Positions 321-20,850 of a DNA stretch of 64,000 nucleotides are shown here, in pieces (position 1 is the stretch's first letter; each line of letters begins with the position of its first letter). This DNA comes from Chitinophagaceae bacterium 26-R-25 (GTDB lineage Bacteria > Bacteroidota > Bacteroidia > Chitinophagales > Chitinophagaceae), in the NCBI GenBank assembly GCA_029906195.1, contig JARWSJ010000001.1, positions 1 to 64,000 of the forward strand, given 5' to 3'. Both the position numbers and the translations under genes were made by a program. The notes beneath the pieces were generated by a model. That model was not told the DNA's origin and did not search any database. It saw nothing but the letters and a program-made list of their open reading frames with translations.

Positions 321-1811
321 ATGCAGATATTCACCATCTTTTTAAACGCTAAACAACGACACATTCAATGTTTGTCAGTTGTGTTGTTTTTGTTTCTAAT
401 AACCGAAGAAACAAATGCGCAAGCACCCACTCATTCGGGATTGGAAAATATCGCCAACGAATCATTTGCTGCGATGGACAAGAAATATTCTTCACTCAAT
501 GATCGAATGAATAAATATCTTGAAAAAGAACTTAAGGAGGAGCAAAAGTTTGAAAGCCGACTGGCAAAAAAGATTGCCAGAAAGGACAGCCTGGCCGCTA
601 CACAAATCGTTAAGGACATGGCATCCCGGTATGGCAAGTTGAGTAGTGCTATTAAAAATCCCCTGGAGAATAAAAGGGTATCAAAGTATATCCCGTTACT
701 GGACAGTTTGCAAACCGCGGGCAAATTCCTTGAACAGAGTAAAGCGCTTAATACAGATAAGCTTAATGAGGTCCAGCAACTCAATGGAAAGCTCAAGGAG
801 CTGGAAGGCAACCTGAACGCTTCTGAACAGGTTGAAAATTTTTTAAAGGAAAGAAAAGCTTTGTTGACTGCCCAGCTTGAACGGTTCGGTATGACAAAAG
901 AACTGGGCCAGTTAAAGCAACGTGTATACTATTATCGCCAGCAAATGGACGAATACAAGAATGTATTTAATGACGAGAAAACGCTGGAGGCCAAAGCTCT
1001 TGAAGCAGTAAGAACACTGCCCGCCTTTCAAAACTTTATGCAAAAAAATAGTTATCTCGCTGAGTTGTTTCCTTCTTCAAATGGGTCCACTGCAGCAGAC
1101 CCGTCTGCGCCTATTGCAGGTCTGCAGACACGTGCAAGCGTACAATCCGTGCTACAAGAAAGACTAGGTGCAGCGACCATGCCTTCCCCGAATGTAGCTG
1201 CAGGAGCAGCTGCTAATCCGTTAGATCAATCGATGCAAGCGGCACAACAGCAGCTTAGTACTTTAAAAGATAAGATCAACAAACTAGGGGGCAATAACAG
1301 CGATATGGAAATACCGGACTTCAAACCGAACGCCCAGAAAACAAAAACATTTTTTCAGAGACTTGAACCGAGCTTAATAATGCAAAGTAGCAGTAGCAGT
1401 AAATGGTTGCCTGCATTGATGGACGTTGGAGCTTCCCTGGGTTACAAATTGAATGATAAAAGTACTGTGGGGATCAAAGCTGCCTACAAACTTGGTTTCG
1501 GTCAGCCAATAAAGGACATTCATTTTAGTAGTGAAGGATTGAATATGGGGGTTTTTGGGGATGTTAAAATAAAAGGCTCCTGGTGGATATCGGGAGGCGC
1601 TGAATACAACTATCTAAGCGGCTTTAAGCGTTTACAGGAGCTTCATGACAATGTTCAGCTTTGGCAACAAAGCGCATTGTTAGGCATTAGTCGCAAAGTC
1701 AAGATCGGTAAGAGGACTAACAATGTGCAGATACTCTATGACTTTCTTTGGAAACAGCAAATCCCTGCAAGTGGAAGTCCATTGAAGTTCAGGATGGGCT
1801 TCGGGCTGTAA
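321..1811 (+). CDS. Secreted coiled-coil protein with C-terminal outer-membrane-barrel-like domain
   Basis: 496 residues. The N-terminus has a long hydrophobic stretch (LSVVLFLFLI) ending near NAQA, a plausible signal peptide with an unusually long basic n-region. Residues about 45-230 are highly charged and helical (Lys/Glu/Gln rich), consistent with coiled coil. Residues about 340-496 alternate hydrophobic and polar residues with many Gly and aromatic positions (SLGYKLNDKSTVGIKAAYKL, then WWISGGAEYNYLSG) and end in a short aromatic/Gly strand, as in small outer-membrane barrels. No family was recognised. It is placed directly before two RHS genes (84 bp gap), so a role in anchoring, export or display of the RHS proteins is an inference from position. 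Confidence 0.7.
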   Translation: MQIFTIFLNAKQRHIQCLSVVLFLFLITEETNAQAPTHSGLENIANESFAAMDKKYSSLNDRMNKYLEKELKEEQKFESRLAKKIARKDSLAATQIVKDMASRYGKLSSAIKNPLENKRVSKYIPLLDSLQTAGKFLEQSKALNTDKLNEVQQLNGKLKELEGNLNASEQVENFLKERKALLTAQLERFGMTKELGQLKQRVYYYRQQMDEYKNVFNDEKTLEAKALEAVRTLPAFQNFMQKNSYLAELFPSSNGSTAADPSAPIAGLQTRASVQSVLQERLGAATMPSPNVAAGAAANPLDQSMQAAQQQLSTLKDKINKLGGNNSDMEIPDFKPNAQKTKTFFQRLEPSLIMQSSSSSKWLPALMDVGASLGYKLNDKSTVGIKAAYKLGFGQPIKDIHFSSEGLNMGVFGDVKIKGSWWISGGAEYNYLSGFKRLQELHDNVQLWQQSALLGISRKVKIGKRTNNVQILYDFLWKQQIPASGSPLKFRMGFGL

Positions 1812-1895
1812 GCAAGTAGAATGAAATTTTTTGAATTTTCACCGAGCTGATTTTTAGCTAAACAATAAATACATCTTTTAAACTCGAAACCAACA

Positions 1896-4800
1896 ATGAA
1901 CAAGATCTTTTTGATCATTTTTTTATTCCTACACATATTTTGCGTCGGGCAACAAATTCAAACAGAGTTTGTTAAACCGACGTCTCCTGAAGTATATAAC
2001 CTGTATAAGTATTCGGAAACTCCGGTGAGTGAATTTTCTGGCTCTGTAAACTTGAGCATCCCTATTTACACGATTGATTTGGGAGATTTTTCCTGGCCTA
2101 TTACCTTGTCTTATAGATCAACAGGAGTGAAGGTGGAAGAGCTAGCTACTTGTTATGGTTTGAATTGGAGTCTAAATGCAACAGGATACAGGTCTACCAG
2201 AGTTTGTGGCCTTAATGATGAAATTACAGCTGGATTCCCCCACAGCAATTTTGTGTTGAATGAGACGAATGCGTATGACCCGATGGGCAATCCTTCTTTT
2301 ACATACGCTAATCTTAACGAGCAAAATAAGTATAATCATTATACCGCAGTGGCCGAAGGAAATGAAGATGCTCAACCTGATTTAACTTTTTTCAATCTCG
2401 GCAATATTAGCGGAAAATATTTTCAAGATCAATATGGTCAGTACCATACCATTCCCCTAACAAATATAAAAGTAACAAACGATGCCATCTATGACGAAAG
2501 CGGTGTAAAATATGTTTTTGGGACCGGCGATTTTTATGATACAAAAAATTGTCCCAATGACTCATACAGCCCACCAAATTGGTCAAATACGGGGTTTTTA
2601 TCTGCCATAACAACCCGGTACGGTCGATGGATCAATTTTGAATACGAAAACGCTAGCTATACCTATGATCATTTAAATGTAGAAATTAAATCAAGACTTT
2701 TGTCGGGGAAACCCCGCTTACTCGATGATCCTACAACGTTTTCCTGTCCTCAAACCAGCACAAAAGTTGACGGTAGTTTTATAAAAAAAATAACGACAAG
2801 TAAGGGTGATATAATCAGTTTCGTGTATGATAATACAAGCAGAAAAGATTTACCCGGGAGTAAAATATTGCAGTCAATAATAATTAGCAATTCATATGGA
2901 ACACTGGTAAAAAAGCTGAATTTCCAATACGCATATGCAGGCATTGGTCCGTTAGGAGTGCCAACGAGCAACCGGCTAATGCTTACTTCTATTGAGCAGG
3001 AAATGGCAAATGGTCAGAAGATAACTCTATACCAGTTTGAATATGACCGTCCCGAATTAATGCCTGACCGGCTTTCGAAATCTCAGGATTTTTGGGGTTT
3101 TTACAACGGTGCACATAACGAAACCTTGTTGCCCTCGAATTTCGATATGAATTTTGTCGGTGCCAATAGAGAAGTTGCTTTTGATTATGCCAAAATTGGA
3201 AGTCTAAAAAAAGTTATTTATCCCACCGGAGGTTACAGCATTTTTGAATATGAACCCAATGATGTTTATCTCAACAATGAAATGACTGAAACGATCGGTG
3301 CTGGTCAATCACCTCAATTCAACTCTGTTGCGAATCAAACAGTCTCTTATTCCGTTACAATTCCAACCAACGCGGTATATCTTAATTTATATCATGAGCT
3401 TTGGAACTGCGGCAATCAATCAAATCCGCCTGGAGGCCAGCATGATGATGAAGGTGAACTACCTCCTAATGCCGACAATTGTAAAATAGAATTTTCGGGT
3501 AATGGATACTACTACATCTGGGATTGTACAAGTATAAAGGAGAACAACTTTTTTGTTGACCTCCCTGCTGGAACATATAATGTAACGGTGACCACACAAG
3601 GCAGCCAGGTGTCAGGCTTTTTACAATTACGCTATATGCTAAGAACCGTAGAATATTTTACTGGCAACAAGATAACGGGTGGGTTAAGGATAAAACAGGT
3701 TTCCACTTTTGCTGCTGAGGGTGATTTACCGCAAATTGCGAAATATACTTATAGGAAATTTAATGCACCCGACCAGTCAAGCGGGAAGCAGATTGCCTCG
3801 GTAAATAGTTCCTATTACCAGTCTAAGTGGCACTGGTTTTCGAGTAATTATGGCTATTGGGATGACCTTTCAGCCGAGGTAAGAGGCGATGTTGCCAGCC
3901 TTATTCCCGCAGAAGTTAAATATTTGGTTCAAAAATCAAACCCAGTAATATCTCTTCAAACAGAAGCTGGGGACGTTGGTAATTATGAAAATGTCACAAA
4001 GTTTATTGACGGTAATGGGACCATGGGGAAAACCGAATATACATTTTCCATAGCAGGACTTGATGCCGGCGATTATGGATTCCCATTTACTCCCCGCGGT
4101 AGTTTTGACTACAAGAATGGAAAATTGTTAAAACAGATAGTGTATGGTTGGAAAGGAAGTTATTATCCAATTGAATCAACTGAAAATTTTTATTCAGAGC
4201 GACCCTATGAAAATTTCTGGAATAAGTTATACTCAGATCAGTCAAACGTACCGGATTTTTACAAAGGACTTGGGCTTAATATAAGTTATAAATTACCAAG
4301 GGTGGTTATTAATCTACTTGCTTACGATGCACAGTTTACTGTTGGCTTTTATCATTGGTATTCAAAATGGTATCGGTTAGACAAAACGACACACAAGCTG
4401 TATACAGGTGAAAATGCAATTGAAGAGACCACAAATTATGCTTTTAATTCTCCTTATCATTTACAAGTAAGTGATATAATTACAAAGAATAGCAAAGGAG
4501 ATGATATTGCAAAATCGATGATCTATCCATCTGATAAACCCTCTGATCCAATACTCACCAAACTTAAAAATGCCAATTGTTTTGTTCCGTTTTCGACGTC
4601 CACTTCAAATTTATCTAAGAATGCTTTGTTGGAAACAACGAGCACCACATTTAAAGAATGGAGCAATAATATAATAGCTCCTTTAATTACTGAGAAAGTA
4701 TTGTCAAATCAACGACCTGCGTTAAGAATGAACTATTCTGCATATGATAACTATGGAAATATTCTTGAAATGTCCAAGCAGGATAATGTTAAGCAGGTAG

Positions 4801-5123
4801 CAGTATATGGATACAATAAAAGTGTTCCGGTTGCCCTTGTGACTAACAGTAGTTATGCGATTGTTTCGCAAACGATTGATCAAGGCATTTTGGACAATCC
4901 TTCCAGCGATCAGGTGTTGCGTGCTGAACTTGACAAACTGCGAACTATTTCCGGAGCCTTGGTTACAACGTACACCTACAGTCCATTAATCGGCATAACC
5001 AGCCAGACAGATCCGAATGGGCGCACTACCTACTTTGAGTACGACACTATGGGCAGGTTAGCTTTGATCAAGGACCAGGATGGCAACATTGTTAAAACTT
5101 TTGAATACAATTATAAGCATTGA
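1896..5123 (+). CDS. RHS/YD-repeat secreted protein (first of the pair)
   Basis: 1075 residues with a clear signal peptide ([18 protein letters not shown], cleavage before QQ). The body is beta-rich with YD-type repeats, clearest near the end ([17 protein letters not shown], then [14 protein letters not shown]). RHS/YD repeats build large hollow beta-cages. This protein lacks the RHS-core signature and any toxin-like tail: it stops just after the last repeat. The next gene carries the core and tail, so the two may form a split RHS shell. The start was chosen for the signal peptide. Confidence 0.85.
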
Positions 5124-5208
5124 CGTAGATAGCCAGGAAATGATTCAACAAACAAAAGCATTGTATCAAGCCGCTATTAGCAGCTCAAACCTTAAGCAGC
5201 AATCAATC

Positions 5209-8200
5209 ATGCGAAATTTATCGTTATTGTTTTTCTCCGTAATGTTTTCAGTTGTAAAATTGAATGCACAATCCAATATAAATTACGTACGTACCTGGCA
5301 GCCAAACGTGCCTACTAATGACAGGAATTATGTGGTGGACGCCAGTCGTATATTTAAGGAAGTGACACTTAGTACCCTATACATGGATGACCTTGGAAGA
5401 CCGATGCAAACCATTGTCAAGGGCGGTTCCCTTGGTAAAGGCAGTACTTCCGGGAAAGACATTGTTACGCCTTTTACATACGATGAATTTGGCAGGGAGA
5501 CTAAAAAGTATTTACCCTATGTTGCGAATGGGACTTCGGGTCAATACAGAGAAGACCCTTTGACAGAACAAAAAAGTTTCTATGACGGTTTTTTATCCGA
5601 TCAGGCAGAAAGTCACTACTATGGACAAACTAATTTTGAACCATCGCCACTCAAACGCTTGGAGAAACAGCTTGCCCCAGGTAAAAACTGGGTAGGGAAT
5701 GACGTAGGAGTTCAATCAAATTATTGGACCAACACCACAAGCGATGGTGTGAGGGTATGGGATGTGTCAGATGCGGTAAATAATGCAGGAACATTTGGAG
5801 TATATACCAGCACCAAGTTTTATGGGGTGGGGGAGCTGTACAAAAATGTAACAACAGACGAGAACGGTAAACAGGTCATAGAGTTTAAGGATAAGCAAGA
5901 AAAGATTATCTTAAAGAAAGTGCAAAATACAGCCCCGGCTGACATTGGTACTGGTTGCGGTTACGATAACTGGATTTGTACGTACTACATTTATGATGAT
6001 TTTGGAAATCTTCGTTGCGTCGTACAACCAGAGGGGGTAAAAGCCTTATCATTAAATAATTGGCAATTACTAACGACCAACAACAATCAACCAACAACCG
6101 ACATCCTTGATGAACAATGCTTCCGTTATGAATACGACGAACGCAATCGTATGATCATGAAAAAAGTGCCTGGCGTGGGTGAGGTGTACATGGTGTATGA
6201 TAATCGTGACAGACTTGTGATGACGCAGGACGCAAATTTGCGTCCTGGAAAATGGCTGGCTACTTTATATGATCTGCTAAATCGTCCGGTTCTTACAGGG
6301 TTTATTAACTATAATGCTACGCTGTCTGAAATGAAGGAGTTGGTTAGGATACAAACAATTCCAGTTCTGGCGCCAGCTGGAATACAGGCAGATCGTATGT
6401 TAAATTGGGGCGATGTATCTGGCGTTTATCAAGCTACCAATAGCATCATATTGGATAATAATTTTACAAGCAGTAGCGAGTTTACTGCAGAAATTGTTAA
6501 CCCAATTGTTAATGAGAAAACAGAAGTTAATGGTGTAGTGATTAGTTATAATCCATTGCCTCCAGGCACCAATCTTGATGTGCTTACTGAAACGCATTAC
6601 GATGATTATGATAAACTTCCTCCTGGGTTATCTCCATCTCTAGCCTCTTATACAAATGCTGGATTTATTAATAGTTACAATGTCGCGCCCGCCTATGCCC
6701 AAGAGATAAAACCTACAGGTAAGATTAAGGGAATAATAGCGTGGACGCGTACCCGTACACTAGGGACAGATCAATTTATTGCCAGTGTAAACTTGTATGA
6801 TGATAAAGGAAGGGTAATACAAGCTCAGACCCTCAATGCAACAGGGGGAATTGATGTCGTTACTACCCAATATGATTGGACAGGTAAGCCACTGCGCAGT
6901 CTTCAAAAAATTGATAAAGAAGGAACGAGTGCTCAGAGTATAGAATTGTTAACTACTTATGGGTATGATGAACTTGGTAGATCTGCATCCATTAAAAAGA
7001 AAGTAAGTACAGCCGGATTCGCTGATGTGGAAAGGGTTATAGTGAAAAATGAATATGATGCTTTAGGGCAATTGAACGTGAAAACACTAGCCCCTGAGTA
7101 CAATAATGAATTTGGATTGGAAAGTATAACCTACGATTACAATATCCGAGGTTGGTTGCTCGGGGCCAATCGGAAATATGCAAAGAGCACGACCATCTCA
7201 AGTAGCAACAATTACTTTGGATTTGACTTGGGTTATGATAATAAGGTTACTTCTATTGCTTCAGGAGATTATGCAGAAGCTCAGCTAAACGGCAATGTAG
7301 CTGGTACGATATGGAAAACGAGGGGCAGTGGCGAATTGCGCAAATATGATTTTACTTATGATGCCGTGAATCGACTGGTCGGAGCAAACTTCGGGCAATA
7401 CACAAATGGTAATTTTGATGTGACCGCTAAAGTAGATTACTCTGTAAGTAACCTCAGTTATGATGACAACGGCAACATAAAGAAAATGTTTCAAAAAGGC
7501 TTGAAAGGGTTAAGTAGTGATTTTATTGACAAACTCATTTATGAATATCTGCCTGGTTCCAACAAGTTAAGCAAAGTCACAGATGAAATGCCCATTTCCC
7601 AAATTGTGTTAGGCGATTTTAAAGACGGGGAGAATACCGGAAATGATTATGTCTACGACAACAACGGAAACTTGACACAGGACTTAAACAAGAACATCAA
7701 TTTAAATGGAATCGAGTACAACTACCTGAATCTGCCTCAAAAGGTTACAACTAGTAAAGGAACTATAGAATACACCTACGATGCTGCTGGAAGTAAGCTT
7801 AAGAAAAAAACAAAAGAAACCAGTGCTGTAGTAAGGTATAACAATGCAGATTACACTACAGATATTACGACAGAAACAATCTACCTAAGTGGTATCGTCT
7901 ACTCTTCCAAGACTTATTCCAACATAGCTTTATCTGCCTTGAATGAAGCAGAAACTCTTCAATTTATAGCTCATGAAGAAGGAAGAGTAAGACTTGGGAC
8001 GAACAATGTCTTTGCTTTCGATTATTTTTTGAAAGATCATCTGGGCAACATCCGGATGGTACTTACTGACGAGCAGCAAACGAATGGCTATAATCCAGTG
8101 ACCTTTGAAGACGCCAATAAAACCTACGAACTGAGCTACTATGACAAAGCAGATGTATCCGTTGTTACAAAACCTCTGCAATTTGCAAACGAGCCCAATA

Positions 8201-9735
8201 GCAAGGCCCAGGTATTGCAAAAGACTAGCCAAAGCGTTGGCGTAGGTAAACTTATTAAGGTAATGTCAGGCGATCTGATTAATGCAATGGTTGATTATTA
8301 CACCCCCGATGTAATAACCAATAACGCGAATGCAGATGGTTTAAATAGCGTACTTGGCAGCTTAGGAAATCTGATAGATAACGGAGCGACCGGTGCGGTA
8401 TTAAAGGGTTCTGGAACATTAGTGACAAATGGTATAACGGCAGCAGGCTTTTTGGGCAGTTTACTGAATGATCAGGGTAGCGGAAATACTAGTGATAAGC
8501 CTAAAGCTTATTTGAATGTTTTATTTTTCGACGAGCAATTTAATTATGTGCCTGGAAGTGGCAGCTACGAACAAGTAAAAGTCATGGGCAGCAAAGATCA
8601 GGCAAGACTGACCAACAAGGAAGCGCAAAAGAATGGCTGGGCATATGTTTATGTCAATAATGAAAGTAATAATTTGGTTTATTTTGATAACTTTCAGGTT
8701 AGCCAGGAAAGAGGAAGAATATTGGAAGAGAATCATTATTATCCCTTTGGCTTAACAATGGCGGGAATAAGCTCGAAGGCTAGTGAGTTTGGAAAACCGG
8801 AAAATCATTATAAATACAATGGTAAAGAAGAACAGCGAAAAGAGTTTAGCGATGGTAGTGGTTTAGATTGGTTGGATTTTGGGGCAAGGATGTATGATAA
8901 TCAAATTGGAAGGTGGCATTGCCAAGATCCTTTAGCCGATATCAACCGCAAGTGGAGCCCATACGTTTATGGCAATAACAATCCCATACGGTTTATTGAC
9001 CCAGATGGAATGGATGCAACTTCTCTCGTAAATGATCTCTGGAATAAATCCGGTTCTGGGAACACAACCTGGACAAACAACAACGATGGCAGTTTTTCCA
9101 GTAATAATGGGCAAACGGTTTCTACAGAAGCTCCAGACAATGACATTACCATCAATACAAAATCAAAAGAAGTTACGGTGGTTCAAACTAATGACCAGTT
9201 TGATAGAGTTTTTGTGGATGGTGCGAAGCGGCCGATTATATCCAATAAAGGGAAAACGGTTGATAAATATAAGCGATGGGGTTTTTATATTTTTTATGAT
9301 TATAACTGCCATACAGGTGTAGGCGACGGGGCTTTTTGGGGAGCAATGAAAGTGTTAGGAGTTTTAAAATTGGGTTCGTTAGCTTTGGAAGGTCTATCGG
9401 GTTTGTTTACAGAAGGTGCCGCTGAGACGATAACTGAGGAGGCCGCTACGGGAACATCGGTTTTGGGACATTACCCTGAGTACGTAAATCTTGCAGAAAA
9501 TATGGGGGCACGGACCTTTCAAGTACCAACAAGTGTGTGGAATGAAATGTCAACGGCTGAACAATGGGAAGCAAATCAAAAGTTTCTTGATAGGATGATA
9601 TTGCGAGGTGATAATATCAGACTTGCAACTCCTCTTAATCAAGTTAAGCCAGGTAGTTTCTTTCAAAGGGAGTTGATTTATTTATTTGACAAAGGCTACA
9701 AACTAAGTTCTGACGGACTTTGGTTAGTTAAATAG
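5209..9735 (+). CDS. RHS repeat-associated core protein (DUF6443 type) with variable C-terminal toxin region
   Basis: 1508 residues from ATG 5209, chosen because it gives a signal peptide ([20 protein letters not shown]); the frame is open further upstream, overlapping the previous gene's end. YD repeats run through most of the protein (for example [26 protein letters not shown]). The RHS core lies around residues 1220-1265 ([19 protein letters not shown], then [18 protein letters not shown]), after which such proteins switch to a variable toxin. About 240 residues follow: a linker, a hydrophobic patch, and a last ~95-residue domain starting [20 protein letters not shown] and ending [15 protein letters not shown]. 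That last domain resembles small polymorphic-toxin RNase-like domains, but the exact family is uncertain. A small gene follows 6 bp later, as expected for an immunity gene. Confidence 0.88.
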
Positions 9736-9741
9736 GAAGCT

Positions 9742-10134
9742 ATGAAGAACAATGAAAAAATATATTACTTTTTAAAGTCAAACGGCTTTGAGCTAATTCA
9801 AGAAGGTGCATCTGCTTTTTTTGACGACTATTACGATACATTTTCGACTGACCTTTTACAACTAAGGTTTAGTAGTTCTAAATCTTTTAAAACGCTTGAT
9901 ATACGGTGTAATCGGCCAAATGAAAATTGGTATGATTTGGCATTAGTAAAAGCCTTGTTGTATAACGAAAGAGAGCTCAATTATGTAACAACCATTGAAG
10001 AACACAAGGACTTTTTACAAAAGGAACTTAGCAATATTGTTGAACTTTTTAACGACAGGAATTATCCAAATACAAAAAAGAAACTAGAAGAATTAGGAAA
10101 TCAACGAGCGAAACAAATGTTTCCTATGGCTTGA
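9742..10134 (+). CDS. Probable immunity protein for the upstream RHS toxin
   Basis: 130 residues, cytoplasmic by appearance (no signal peptide, no membrane segment), acidic/charged with a helical Lys/Glu-rich C-terminus. It starts 6 bp after the RHS toxin gene and is followed by a terminator, the standard layout of a polymorphic toxin-immunity pair. No sequence family was recognised. The assignment rests on position, size and lack of export signals. Confidence 0.7.
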   Translation: MKNNEKIYYFLKSNGFELIQEGASAFFDDYYDTFSTDLLQLRFSSSKSFKTLDIRCNRPNENWYDLALVKALLYNERELNYVTTIEEHKDFLQKELSNIVELFNDRNYPNTKKKLEELGNQRAKQMFPMA

Positions 10135-10384
10135 ATTGGTATTGCGATAGAATAGATAGTGAGTCCACAGATGATTATTTTCTGCCCTCGTTGGTGTTCG
10201 GGATCAGCCGTTGTTGCGTGTGTCGGGCAGGTGAATGTGTGATGGCACACCAACAACTAAGAGCCGTGATCAATTATCATAAAAGAATGCCGTTGGTGCG
10301 AGCCGGCGGCATTTGCCGGTTTAAATGGTTAATGGCAATGAGAAAAAAAGCAGTTAAAAGAAGTAATTTATTTCAAATGTTCCA

Positions 10385-10410
10385 AACCACTCTTCGGGGT
10401 GGTTTTTTTA
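10385..10410 (+). terminator. Rho-independent terminator of the RHS operon
   Basis: Eight-base-pair stem AACCACTC / GGGTGGTT (one G-T pair) closed by a C(TTCG)G loop and followed by a T-run. It lies 250 bp after the immunity gene. Confidence 0.85.
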
Positions 10411-10445
10411 TGCTCAAAACTTAAGCGATCTTGGTATAAGAAACA

Positions 10446-10800
10446 ACCAACCCTCACTGTTTTACTTACCAAACAGAAGAACTCCTAATTGAACTCTTAG
10501 GAGGTGTCAGAATAGAAGGATTAGGCAGGATGGGTAACCATAAAAGTAACAGTGGCAAACAAGAAACATGCGGCGTACTTAAACAATGAAGAACTGGCTG
10601 GATTATCAGTGGGGCATAACCTTGATCTGTACAATGATACACAGGTAGAGAAGTTTGTAAGACGAGTAGCAGAGAAACTGGAGACTGGCAGCATAGAATA
10701 CAAAAGTGATGGTTTATATAACCAAATATCCAGGCACAGAATACCATTGCAGGTCTATTCCAAAAGTTTTTTAAATGTTGGTTGTAAAAATGTTTCTTAA
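10446..10800 (+). pseudogene. Frameshifted remnant of a mobile-element primase/helicase-type protein
   Basis: Two plus-strand reading frames join into one recognisable protein. Frame one encodes QTEELLIELLGGVRIEGLGRM up to 10532; after one extra G at 10533 the second frame continues VTIKVTVANKKHAAYLNN, then HNLDLYNDTQVEKFVRRV and AEKLETGSIEY. The HNLDLYND...EK..RK/R..AE.LE.G pattern is one I associate with Toprim/primase-like proteins of Bacteroidota mobile elements; the family name is from memory. Both ends are missing, so it is a decayed fragment. An ATG at 10552 opens the second frame but is unlikely to make a functional product. Confidence 0.6.
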
Positions 10801-14174: not shown

Positions 14175-14384
14175 TTATTTTATTGTTCTTTTTGAAGAAA
14201 ATATCATCCAGCTGTTAAGGGTTTTTACACGTTTTTCACAAGAGCTGCAAGCTTGTATTCCCAATTTATAGGTTGTATGCTTGATCACATCGCCTAGGCC
14301 GATTTCTTCAGTAACAATGAACCCAGGTAACCGTAACCGAAATGGCTTGTGTATGTTGCTTTTTTGGTGGTTGTATTTTGTCAT
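14175..14384 (-). CDS. Small Cys-motif protein, candidate processed peptide or precursor
   Basis: 69 residues from ATG 14384 (an in-frame TTG lies 15 bp upstream). Key segment: GFIVTEEIGLGDVIKHTTY, then KLGIQACSSCEKRVKTLNSW. The pattern GLGDxIKxxT...GIxxCxxCxxR...LN is one I have seen in short proteins of many unrelated bacteria, usually written with CGGC; its function is not known to me. It sits between the secreted protein and the PatG-C-like gene, with only 5 bp to the latter. Size, the CxxC core and association with an S8 protease and PatG-like domain suggest a substrate or precursor (inference). It could also be a small metal- or redox-binding partner. Confidence 0.65.
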   Translation of the reverse strand: MTKYNHQKSNIHKPFRLRLPGFIVTEEIGLGDVIKHTTYKLGIQACSSCEKRVKTLNSWMIFSSKRTIK

Positions 14385-18987: not shown

Positions 18988-20556
18988 TTATTTTGAGAGG
19001 TGGATTACTTTTAGTGGATTCGTAGTCTTTGTTCTTTCGATATCGACAGACTGATTTTTATTGATCGTCCTCTTGCTGTGCCTTTTGAATTCTCCATCAT
19101 CATCAATCAGTTTGTCTGCTACTTTTTCCATGCTCTCACTGATATTCTTTTTGTTGGCCCATACATAAACCTCCGTTGTTTTTACGGATGTATGGCCAAG
19201 CATCCTGCTGACAGTTTTTAATTCCACTCCATTGTTGAAAGCAATCTCATTGGCAAAAAAGAATCTTGCCTTATGAGTGTTCAGCTTTATTTTGATTCCA
19301 GCCGCCGCGGCCACTTCTTTTAACGCTCGGTTATATGCCTGGTTGGTTGGAACTGGGAGCAAACGATTTCTTCTTACGCACACAGGATGATCGCTGTATT
19401 TATCCAGCAGTTTAATTGCTGGAGGTAATAAAGGAACAGCCTCTTCGTTGCTACTCTTTTGCCTGTTGGTGTTAATCCATAACTTTTCATCAAAACCTTT
19501 CACGATATCTTTTGCAGAAAGATTAAACAACTCGAGGTAGGAGAGACCTGTGTAGCAGCCAAACAAAAAAACATCACGCACTTCGTTCAGCATGCCTTTT
19601 TCAAACACCAACTCTTTCATATTATGCATCTGCTCCATCGTTGGCCATGATGGGATAGGGTTCTTATAGCCACATTTGAAAAGTGTAAACATGTTGCTGG
19701 ATATCCATCCATTTGCAACAGCGCGATCAAATATTTCTTTTATACTTTGGGAGTATTTTGATGCCGTGTTATTGCCTACACCGAAATGAGTCAATTGATA
19801 TTTATGCAAATCAGAAATGAAGTTATACTGCATCTCCTCTAAGAATAGGTCATGCTTTTTATACCGGTAGAAAATAAACGACTGATACCTCTTTTTTCTG
19901 CCAATCATTTTTTCGAGACTGTTGGGTGAGCGTTTACCTGCTAAGCATAGCTGTAAAAAATTGAGCAGGTATTCATTGATGGCAAGAAGGAAAGTCTTTT
20001 TATGTTTTTTGTTATCGAAGATTTTGTTGGCAAAAAAGGTAAGCGATTCAAGAGAAACTCGAAGGTGCTTGAAAGTCTGTTGTAATTGTTTGTTTTTTTC
20101 TTCGCTTGGTACGGCATCAAACGCATAAGCTTTTAGGTAATCATCATTGTGGGTCAGATACTTTGTTATTAGGGCATCTAGTTGCTCGCTTAAGGAAAGA
20201 TTATCCTCTTTGTCCTTTTCAATAGCCTGCGCATTTATAGGCGTTTTGTAATTGTTTTTAACCTGTGCTGGGGTGACTGCTTCAAATTGTGCCTTGAGGA
20301 TGTTAAAATGCTGCTCCAGGTCGGCTTGGATCTTTATGAGTCTTTTGTTAAGGTTTACGGCGCCGGGAAATGTAGTCCGTATCACCTTGCGCTCGGCATC
20401 CCAGGCCTGTTCTGGTAAACTAATACCTGTTGCGATTTCGTCTCTGAGACCGTCGATGCTGATGCGGACATAAATAGGCGCAATGCCTTTCTCGGATTTC
20501 CTTGTTTTTCTCAAATAGATGAGAAAAGAGAGCTTTTGTAACACTTGCATGTTCAA
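18988..20556 (-). CDS. Tyrosine site-specific integrase (IntDOT-like)
   Basis: 522 residues: N-terminal arm-binding domain (FLIYLRKTRKSEKGIAPIYV, typical of Bacteroidota integrases), a SAM-like core-binding domain and a C-terminal catalytic domain. Catalytic residues visible are a Lys in the beta-hairpin (NTNRQKSSNEEAVPLLPP), HKAR for the His-x-x-Arg box, LGHTS, and the nucleophile Tyr in TTEVYVWANKK. The usual first Arg is replaced: the segment reads CYTGLSYLEL, with Ser where most recombinases have Arg, as reported for the conjugative-transposon integrase IntDOT. Located 220 bp from the 3' end of tRNA-Arg, so it probably inserted the neighbouring island. Confidence 0.9.
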   Translation of the reverse strand: MNMQVLQKLSFLIYLRKTRKSEKGIAPIYVRISIDGLRDEIATGISLPEQAWDAERKVIRTTFPGAVNLNKRLIKIQADLEQHFNILKAQFEAVTPAQVKNNYKTPINAQAIEKDKEDNLSLSEQLDALITKYLTHNDDYLKAYAFDAVPSEEKNKQLQQTFKHLRVSLESLTFFANKIFDNKKHKKTFLLAINEYLLNFLQLCLAGKRSPNSLEKMIGRKKRYQSFIFYRYKKHDLFLEEMQYNFISDLHKYQLTHFGVGNNTASKYSQSIKEIFDRAVANGWISSNMFTLFKCGYKNPIPSWPTMEQMHNMKELVFEKGMLNEVRDVFLFGCYTGLSYLELFNLSAKDIVKGFDEKLWINTNRQKSSNEEAVPLLPPAIKLLDKYSDHPVCVRRNRLLPVPTNQAYNRALKEVAAAAGIKIKLNTHKARFFFANEIAFNNGVELKTVSRMLGHTSVKTTEVYVWANKKNISESMEKVADKLIDDDGEFKRHSKRTINKNQSVDIERTKTTNPLKVIHLSK

Positions 20557-20622
20557 TTCATTTTAAATTTTTAAAACGCTCTTCTAAATCGTAAAAATGC
20601 GTTGAAGTGCAGGTGTAGTCGC

Positions 20623-20660
20623 AGGTGTCCATAAAGTTATGGACACCTAATTGGACACCT
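20623..20660. promoter_or_regulatory. Palindrome and half-site upstream of the integrase
   Basis: AGGTGTCCATAA / TTATGGACACCT forms a perfect 12-bp inverted repeat with a 2-base centre (20623-20648). A further half-site GGACACCT follows at 20653-20660 and a partial AGGTGTAG at 20611. The spacing suggests an operator or a recombinase/excisionase arm site. It lies 67-104 bp upstream of the integrase start. Confidence 0.5.
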
Positions 20661-20743
20661 AAAATGCCACCTTTTTAATTAAAATGGTTTGAAATGTTTT
20701 GATATCGAAATCCGTGGAAAGCCTTACTGGGCGGGCTTATATG

Positions 20744-20774
20744 CAAAAAAATAGCGCAATGTGAATTGCGCTAT
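20744..20774 (-). terminator. Terminator of tRNA-Arg
   Basis: Perfect 10-bp stem ATAGCGCAAT / ATTGCGCTAT with a 4-base loop, followed on the minus strand by a run of seven Ts. It begins 2 bp past the tRNA 3' end. Confidence 0.85.
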
Positions 20775-20776
20775 CG

Positions 20777-20850
<74 letters not shown>

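Follow-up and report, generated by a model that had tools for sequence, protein, structure and literature searches.

The window, by which we mean the entire 64,000-nucleotide stretch of DNA that was analysed, carries on its minus strand a short gene whose product, P0001, is followed by a gene for a stand-alone PatG domain, P0002, and by a gene for the cysteine-rich protein P0005 (Table 1). A sequence-only reading of this DNA had described a 69-residue open reading frame (ORF) with a GLGD-CxxC-LN motif 5 bp before a PatG-C-like gene; the positions, spacing and motif that it gave are right, and it named no strand. The plus-strand frame over the same stretch is interrupted by stops. P0002 matches PF18047 (PatG_D, E = 3.9e-30) and PF18065 (PatG_C, E = 6.8e-31), both above the Pfam cut-off, and its best PDB sequence match is the PatG DUF (PDB code 4uvq, E = 1.1e-4). 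Its N-terminal linker carries a CPTC sequence. P0005 scores 108.9 bits with the Stig1 model (cut-off 24.1) and 91.8 bits with NF041328 (cut-off 100). On the upstream side, family searches with P0003 returned no family, and no Pfam family was found for P0004.

Table 1. Features of the P0001 locus, in window coordinates.
Feature	Coordinates	Strand	Description
P0005	11834..13243	minus	469 aa, 68 Cys, Stig1 family; 23 bp after P0002
P0002	13267..14169	minus	Stand-alone PatG D + C, 300 aa; start 5 bp past P0001
P0001	14175..14384	minus	69 aa, MTKYNHQKSNIHKPFRLRLPGFIVTEEIGLGDVIKHTTYKLGIQACSSCEKRVKTLNSWMIFSSKRTIK; ATG at 14384, stop ending at 14175
CxxC (CSSC), P0001 residues 46-49	14238..14249	minus	N-terminal end of predicted helix 2
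GLGD, P0001 residues 29-32	14289..14300	minus	Opens the module common to phage proteins
PGF motif, P0001 residues 20-22	14319..14327	minus	Inside RLPGFxx(D/E); also in leaders of downstream ORFs
P0003	14516..15400	minus	294 aa; upstream neighbour, cassette membership uncertain
P0004	15390..17210	minus	606 aa; predicted N-terminal helix, GTSYATP

A tblastn search with P0001 returned four plasmids (Mesorhizobium, Sinorhizobium and two Streptomyces) with 45-53% identity and E values of 2e-11 or lower, and a pattern scan of genome contigs yielded 48 loci encoding the small protein, so that the ORF is more than a chance frame. Because the scan pattern, [DTE][EG][ED][IV]GLGD[VA][VIA], includes cassette-type residues, these 48 loci favour the PGF-bearing form found in the cassettes described below and are not an unbiased sample. 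They include Brocadia, Nitrosomonas, Nitrosospira, Nitrosovibrio and Methylobacter, as well as Acidobacteria, Verrucomicrobiota, Chloroflexota, Abditibacteriales and many Actinomycetota; relatives of the cassette fall into six named phyla. Together with the four plasmids and the window, the 48 genome contigs make up the 53 loci that were scored, with profiles derived from the plasmid and window copies.

The relatives share a recurrent gene order of a subtilisin (S8), the small protein and PatG D+C. An S8 peptidase is annotated just upstream of the small gene in three of the four plasmids, the PatG-type gene directly follows it in all four, and a reverse search with the PatG protein retrieved the identical four plasmids and one distant Photobacterium record, in whose stretch neither S8 nor small protein was seen. 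A Photobacterium plasmid (L071, 5560-7723) has two or more PatG-C-like ORFs; the 12.7 kb fetched for it gave no match to S8 or to the small protein. With a second query a fifth plasmid was obtained through a weak match (E = 0.3) to the CxxC module alone; this Streptomyces plasmid protein (L067, 4704-5138) has GLGD...CxxC...LN at its C-terminus, and no S8 or PatG match was found in 10 kb around it. Of the 53 scored loci, 50 have a PatG-domain gene behind the small gene and 49 have an S8 gene, the exceptions for S8 being L005, L022, L028 and the window; both genes occupy their usual places in 42 (L003 counted from its annotation). The S8 gene instead follows the PatG gene in L029, L047, L051, L052 and L053. 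PatG is missing from L012, where the contig edge is reached ~0.8 kb beyond the small gene, and from L014, in which the small protein is accompanied by S8, while L022 has the small protein with neither gene. This last locus, from Candidatus Brocadia pituitae, has no S8 or PatG within the fetched 16 kb; a CGCGCGC-containing ORF and an ORF that is presumably radical-SAM-like lie beside its small protein (locus positions 8001-8153 and 8399-10617). The functional pairing with the PatG-C-like gene that the sequence-only reading had suggested is thus borne out by the four strong plasmids, the reverse search and the genomes described below, and PGF-bearing homologues were not seen mostly away from S8/PatG-C genes, in a scan that itself favours that form.

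An alignment of 45 cassette S8 proteins shows conserved D, H, N and S regions. These proteins have about 290 residues and start almost at the catalytic domain, in a frame with no visible pro-domain. For the L003 protein the nearest PDB entry is the N-terminal cyanobactin protease (PDB code 4h6w, E = 4.9e-30), yet it stays under every NCBIfam cut-off, with a mycosin model scoring best (127.9 bits, cut-off 278.75). A CxxC in the N-terminal linker of the PatG protein, as in P0002, occurs in only 27 of 50 loci, which argues that a metal site formed jointly with the small protein is not general. A comparison of 52 loci for ORFs of at least 90 codons that lie outside the cassette found no fourth widely shared gene; the most widespread ORFs reach five other loci. 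Consensus promoters and terminators were no commoner than in shuffled sequence. Small PatG-C-terminal-like fragments lie downstream in L013, L017 and L024 and are perhaps recombination remnants. The Nitrosospira/Nitrosovibrio cassettes L027, L034 and L041 have upstream genes in common, including an ORF that is presumably tyrosinase-like.

A less biased view of the pairing was obtained by searching PF18065 and the small-protein alignment separately in 369 genomes of one class. PF18065 was found in six and the small protein in five (E ≤ 0.001), and the four genomes with strong small-protein matches (E ≤ 2.4e-31) coincide with the four in which a stand-alone PatG domain is complete. In each of these (G578, G606, G754 and G862) S8, small protein and PatG domain are adjacent; G578 was the chosen centre and known beforehand, and G606 is apparently the genome of L009, which leaves two new cases. 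The fifth small-protein genome, G845, matches weakly, over the CxxC part alone (E = 7e-4). As for the other PF18065 genomes, G617 encodes a fused S8-PatG protein and the small protein was not found in its whole genome, while in G613 the contig edge cuts off all but the tail of a PatG gene, after which come two leader-type ORFs. A PF18065 search of 395 genomes from the window's phylum found the domain in two, the window's own and that of the fused protein L056. Among genomes near the window the small protein was found in one of 196, again the window's own, and phrog_32048 likewise in one of 198. Through PF18065 a second cassette with S8, small protein and leaders (L083) was found in the genome of L023, which had already been chosen for L023. 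In the flanks of the fused proteins L056 (1.5 kb) and L084, no small protein and no PGF leader was found. By these sequence searches, the small protein goes with the stand-alone PatG domain and did not turn up with either of the two fused proteins seen. The L056 fusion lies on the minus strand at 1489-3321, and the ORFs following it start with MRIPIQARPIER and MTIPIQAAPVLR; in the first of these, GSVMPQ precedes the cysteine-rich part. Such starts (IPIQAxPxxR) may represent a second leader type that goes with fused PatG proteins.

The alignment of the 53 loci confirms that the N-terminus of the small protein is variable and the remainder conserved. The initial 20-30 residues vary, and from R(V)RLPGF to the C-terminus the family is nearly invariant. 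The D of GLGD, both cysteines, an R and an L are kept in all 53 loci, and the G, L and G preceding the D in 52, the missing row being the broken L055; within PGF, P and F are present in 52 and G in 49. AlphaFold2 (48 sequences) gave a mean pLDDT of 78.7 for P0001, with block means of 91-93 over residues 31-60, and placed helices at residues 30-40 and 47-59, the CxxC beginning the second. P0001 is thus predicted to form a compact helical hairpin. When this model was compared with known folds by Foldseek, nothing in the PDB matched at E ≤ 0.001. The top two hits among viral proteins, with E = 0.03 and 0.14, are to uncharacterised proteins of Caudovirales that are 44-47% identical to P0001 across 32-39 columns. 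No significant match to Pfam or NCBIfam was found, and an arrestin-like Pfam match under its cut-off (E = 0.084) was taken as chance. The family has one invariant CxxC, compared with the four metal ligands expected of a zinc finger, and a zinc finger was set aside as the sole explanation of P0001 for this reason. With a variable part at the N-terminus and a nearly invariant remainder in 53 loci, a RiPP precursor with a hypervariable core was rejected. The conserved part had been proposed to be the product of a leader/core peptide. Its near-invariance across phyla and its predicted helical hairpin are unlike a variable RiPP core and do not sustain that proposal; the uniform conservation typical of a domain, which the same reading had set against itself, is close to what is seen.

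Part of the small protein recurs in phages. P0001 matches phrog_32048 with E = 9.7e-6 over 38 residues (profile positions 12-49 of 119), and small phage proteins such as that of Nonlabens phage P12024S (JQ823122) share GLGD..T...GI..CxxC..R...LN with it but, unlike P0001, have no PGF segment. This GLGD-CxxC-LN module lacking the PGF part was found on at least nine viral contigs and in Nonlabens phages, and no S8 or PatG match was found near it in the 11 loci searched (10 viral, one plasmid).

ORFs with a leader/core architecture usually follow in the same row of genes; they lie downstream of the PatG gene, and not at P0001, where the sequence-only reading had placed a putative one. They start with M..(I/M)PGFTAEASLYxTxxxY, and the first is often found ~13-45 nt past the PatG stop. 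The strict leader pattern, written after such ORFs had been seen and tested on both strands of 52 loci, matched 46 ORFs. Of these, 44 share the strand of the cassette and lie no more than 3.5 kb beyond PatG, an area that covers one strand of 153,048 out of 661,672 bases, and none is on the opposite strand; this count, like the leader profile, comes from the same loci from which the pattern was built. The other two are in L012, the PatG-less contig, and elsewhere in L033. A [VILM]xP[QA] sequence occurs at about residue 30-35 in 56 of 83 leader ORFs (500 shuffled runs gave a mean of 7.4 and a maximum of 16), and in those 56 ORFs cysteine makes up 8 of the 1814 residues that precede this sequence and 422 of the 3303 that follow it. 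Across 600 pairs drawn from 53 ORFs that the leader profile had selected, identity was 0.458 in the leader and 0.244 in the core, compared with 0.231 for shuffled cores. As judged from sequence, the downstream ORFs thus combine a conserved leader with a hypervariable core, as is expected of RiPP-like precursors. The leaders often form arrays, whereas the small protein is present in one copy per cassette.

The cores mostly have an even number of cysteines. Beyond residue 25 the cysteine count is even in 62 of 67 non-redundant leader ORFs (binomial P = 7e-14), where ORFs more than 50% identical beyond residue 25 had been removed, and in 72 of 77 at a looser leader threshold. Among ORFs with at least two cysteines, the count is even in 62 of 64; among the other short ORFs of these loci, whether coding or not, it is even in 564 of 859. 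These even counts suggest disulfide pairs. Eight leader ORFs compared with Pfam and NCBIfam gave no significant match. The L026 core matches CBM_14 above its cut-off, and those of L018, L019 and L033 contain Stig1/MXAN_6577 repeats that score below the cut-offs. The [VILM]xP[QA] sequence is also found in the N-terminal linkers of 29 of 50 PatG proteins (shuffles: mean 8.0, maximum 15), or 19 of 50 for the PQ-only form (mean 5.0, maximum 12), suggesting that PatG proteins may be cut too. An hhalign comparison of the P0001 family with the leader profile aligned nine columns in the PGF region (P = 2.6e-4, probability 42.5%).

In the window, the substrate is probably P0005, with a divergent leader. 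Its N-terminus reads MFAPIFISEETALRKTVSNY, its first cysteine is residue 46, and its repeat type is shared with leader proteins of other phyla (L018, L019 and L033). It ranks first among 101 ORF N-termini of the window against the leader profile, with only 5.9 bits (next 3.6), in a ranking in which 76 of 104 entries received a score and three of the 104 are repeats. P0005 is absent from the leader-HMM matches, and a clear VxPQ was not seen in its leader.

A recognisable cassette S8 was not found in the window. P0004 was considered for this part and rejected, as neither profile, profile-profile nor structure comparisons supported it: it reaches E = 0.3 against the S8 profile with filters off and a score below zero, hhalign gives P = 0.63, and its structure model is unusable (pLDDT 33). 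GTSYATP is its sole recognisable S8 feature, and P0004 could be a very divergent S8. A search of the rest of the genome with the L008 S8 returned two weak matches elsewhere (29-32% identity). The window may therefore hold a diverged cassette, or one that relies on another protease. It lies on a long branch among PatG sequences, which points to no donor group.

The surroundings of the locus have features of a mobile element. A tyrosine recombinase gene (PF00589, PF17293, PF13102) in the 18988-20850 region starts 219 bp from a tRNA-Arg (20776-20850). The segment 20740-20796, comprising 21 bases of the tRNA 3' end and 36 beyond, recurs at 98% on contig 2 of the same assembly (G000, 1503877-1503932), about 68 kb from the end of that contig. 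GC content is 30-37% at 14-20 kb, compared with about 40-43% beyond 20 kb. The recombinase, the repeat of the tRNA end and the low GC indicate that the cassette probably lies within an integrative element that crosses the contig break, given a contig order that we infer. Elsewhere in the window, at 5080-9735, a 1551-residue RHS-repeat/DUF6443 protein is encoded, followed by a 130-residue ORF (9742-10134) that could be its partner.

The closest known system is that of the cyanobactins. Every cyanobactin pathway characterised up to 2014 contained the PatG DUF, whose role was then open (PMC4259220). The cassette resembles cyanobactin PatA/PatG (TIGR03895, PF18047/PF18065, PDB codes 4uvq and 4h6w) in the type of its S8 (L003), in PatG D+C and in its variable substrates with leaders. 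Its leader sequence AEAS recalls the PatA site G(L/V)E(A/P)S, behind which enzymes of the PatA kind cleave (PMC10885120). It differs in having S8 and DUF as separate genes together with an invariant 69-residue protein, in cores with even cysteine counts, and in having no widely shared other gene of at least 90 codons. With TIGR03895 (cut-off 421), P0002 scores 29.2, the L003 S8 98.2 and the L008 DUF 31.9 bits, compared with 673.8 bits for the fused L084. The cassette probably works like cyanobactin leader processing, yet by the tests made it is not a member of that system, because it is unfused, falls below the TIGR03895 cut-off and has no widely shared tailoring gene among ORFs of at least 90 codons.

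Other likenesses are more distant. MXAN_6577-like/Stig1 proteins (NF041328, PF04885) resemble the core of P0005 and, below the cut-offs, those of L018, L019 and L033; here, however, such cores are adjacent to a cassette and stand behind a PGF-type leader, which is divergent in P0005. The subtilisin-like maturation protease QhpE removes the leader from a cysteine-cross-linked protein. With the QhpE model (NF049966) the L003 S8 scores 62 bits, below the cut-off of 165, and unlike QhpE the cassette loci have no widely shared radical-SAM partner among ORFs of at least 90 codons in 52 loci. In a search of mainly open-access journal papers, and of Pfam and NCBIfam, we found no paper or family that describes the leaders or the cassette.

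We favour, with moderate confidence and on the strength of sequence comparison, a role for P0001 as the invariant third component of a split leader-processing cassette derived from PatA/PatG. We read it as a leader-mimicking accessory protein and infer its biochemical step as follows. The small protein would dock on the protease/PatG machinery through PGFxx(D/E), the same element that is present in the leaders, and the docking site shared with the substrates would most simply be the PatG domain. It could thereby bridge the separate S8 and PatG domain, bringing S8, PatG domain and substrate together, parts that fused PatA/PatG proteins partly combine in one chain. The CxxC helical hairpin might hold the complex through a metal or a disulfide, or might act on the cysteines of the core. 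The protease would then cut the leaders and release disulfide-rich mini-proteins. The known cleavage by PatA-like enzymes behind G(L/V)E(A/P)S makes AEAS-L a candidate site, and VxPQ, which borders the cysteine-rich part, is a second one.

P0001 might instead be a precursor of an invariant product, in the way that PqqA is a precursor giving one cofactor, with the PGF part as leader and GLGD...CxxC...LN cut out and used. The resemblance of its PGF element to true leaders, the protease of a leader-removing kind that accompanies it and its variable N-terminus are consistent with this. However, the variable part lies ahead of PGF and not after it, P0001 is predicted to fold as a domain, and there is a single copy per cassette where the leaders form arrays. 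Phage proteins moreover hold the module with no PGF, some in frames of just 44-64 residues, so that it seems to work without a leader. We regard such a precursor as improbable.

We give about as little credence to an inhibitor or propeptide acting in trans, which would silence the S8 until substrates are present, and to a generic phage-derived CxxC domain, binding metal or DNA/RNA, that regulates the operon. The former would suit a small gene that directly follows the S8 gene in most loci, an S8 of ~290 residues beginning almost at its catalytic domain, and a leader mimicry that could occupy the substrate groove, but five loci have the S8 gene downstream of PatG, and no S8 accompanies the phage forms in the 5 kb fetched on either side or up to the contig ends. 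The latter draws on the phrog_32048 match, the at least nine viral loci, the Foldseek matches to uncharacterised Caudovirales proteins (E = 0.03-0.14) and the presence of one CxxC only. Against it stand the link of P0001 to a stand-alone PatG domain, the absence of the PGF element from the phage forms seen and the lack of a PDB match at E ≤ 0.001, although a binding fold is still compatible with this last result.

The leader-mimicking accessory role would extend to a bolder proposal, which we put forward tentatively: that the S8, the freed PatG domain and the leader-mimicking CxxC mini-protein alone make hypervariable disulfide-rich mini-proteins from PGFTAEASL precursors. Just as speculative is the idea that, within this unrecognised cross-phylum three-protein system, the CxxC mini-protein makes the cysteine pairs, proofreads them or protects them ahead of cleavage.

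The cassette is probably a bacterial gene set for protein processing that apparently has no name yet, and its likely products are the neighbouring, highly variable cysteine-rich mini-proteins with their common start tag. The downstream ORFs, found in nitrifiers, Streptomyces, rhizobia, Acidobacteria and others, form a reservoir, apparently also unnamed, of natural mini-proteins with even numbers of cysteines. A stand-alone PatG DUF is here tied to one invariant 69-residue partner and to its own leader type, which turns the role of the DUF into a simple binding experiment. If the proposed docking is true, the long-unexplained PatG domain would be a docking platform for leader-type sequences.
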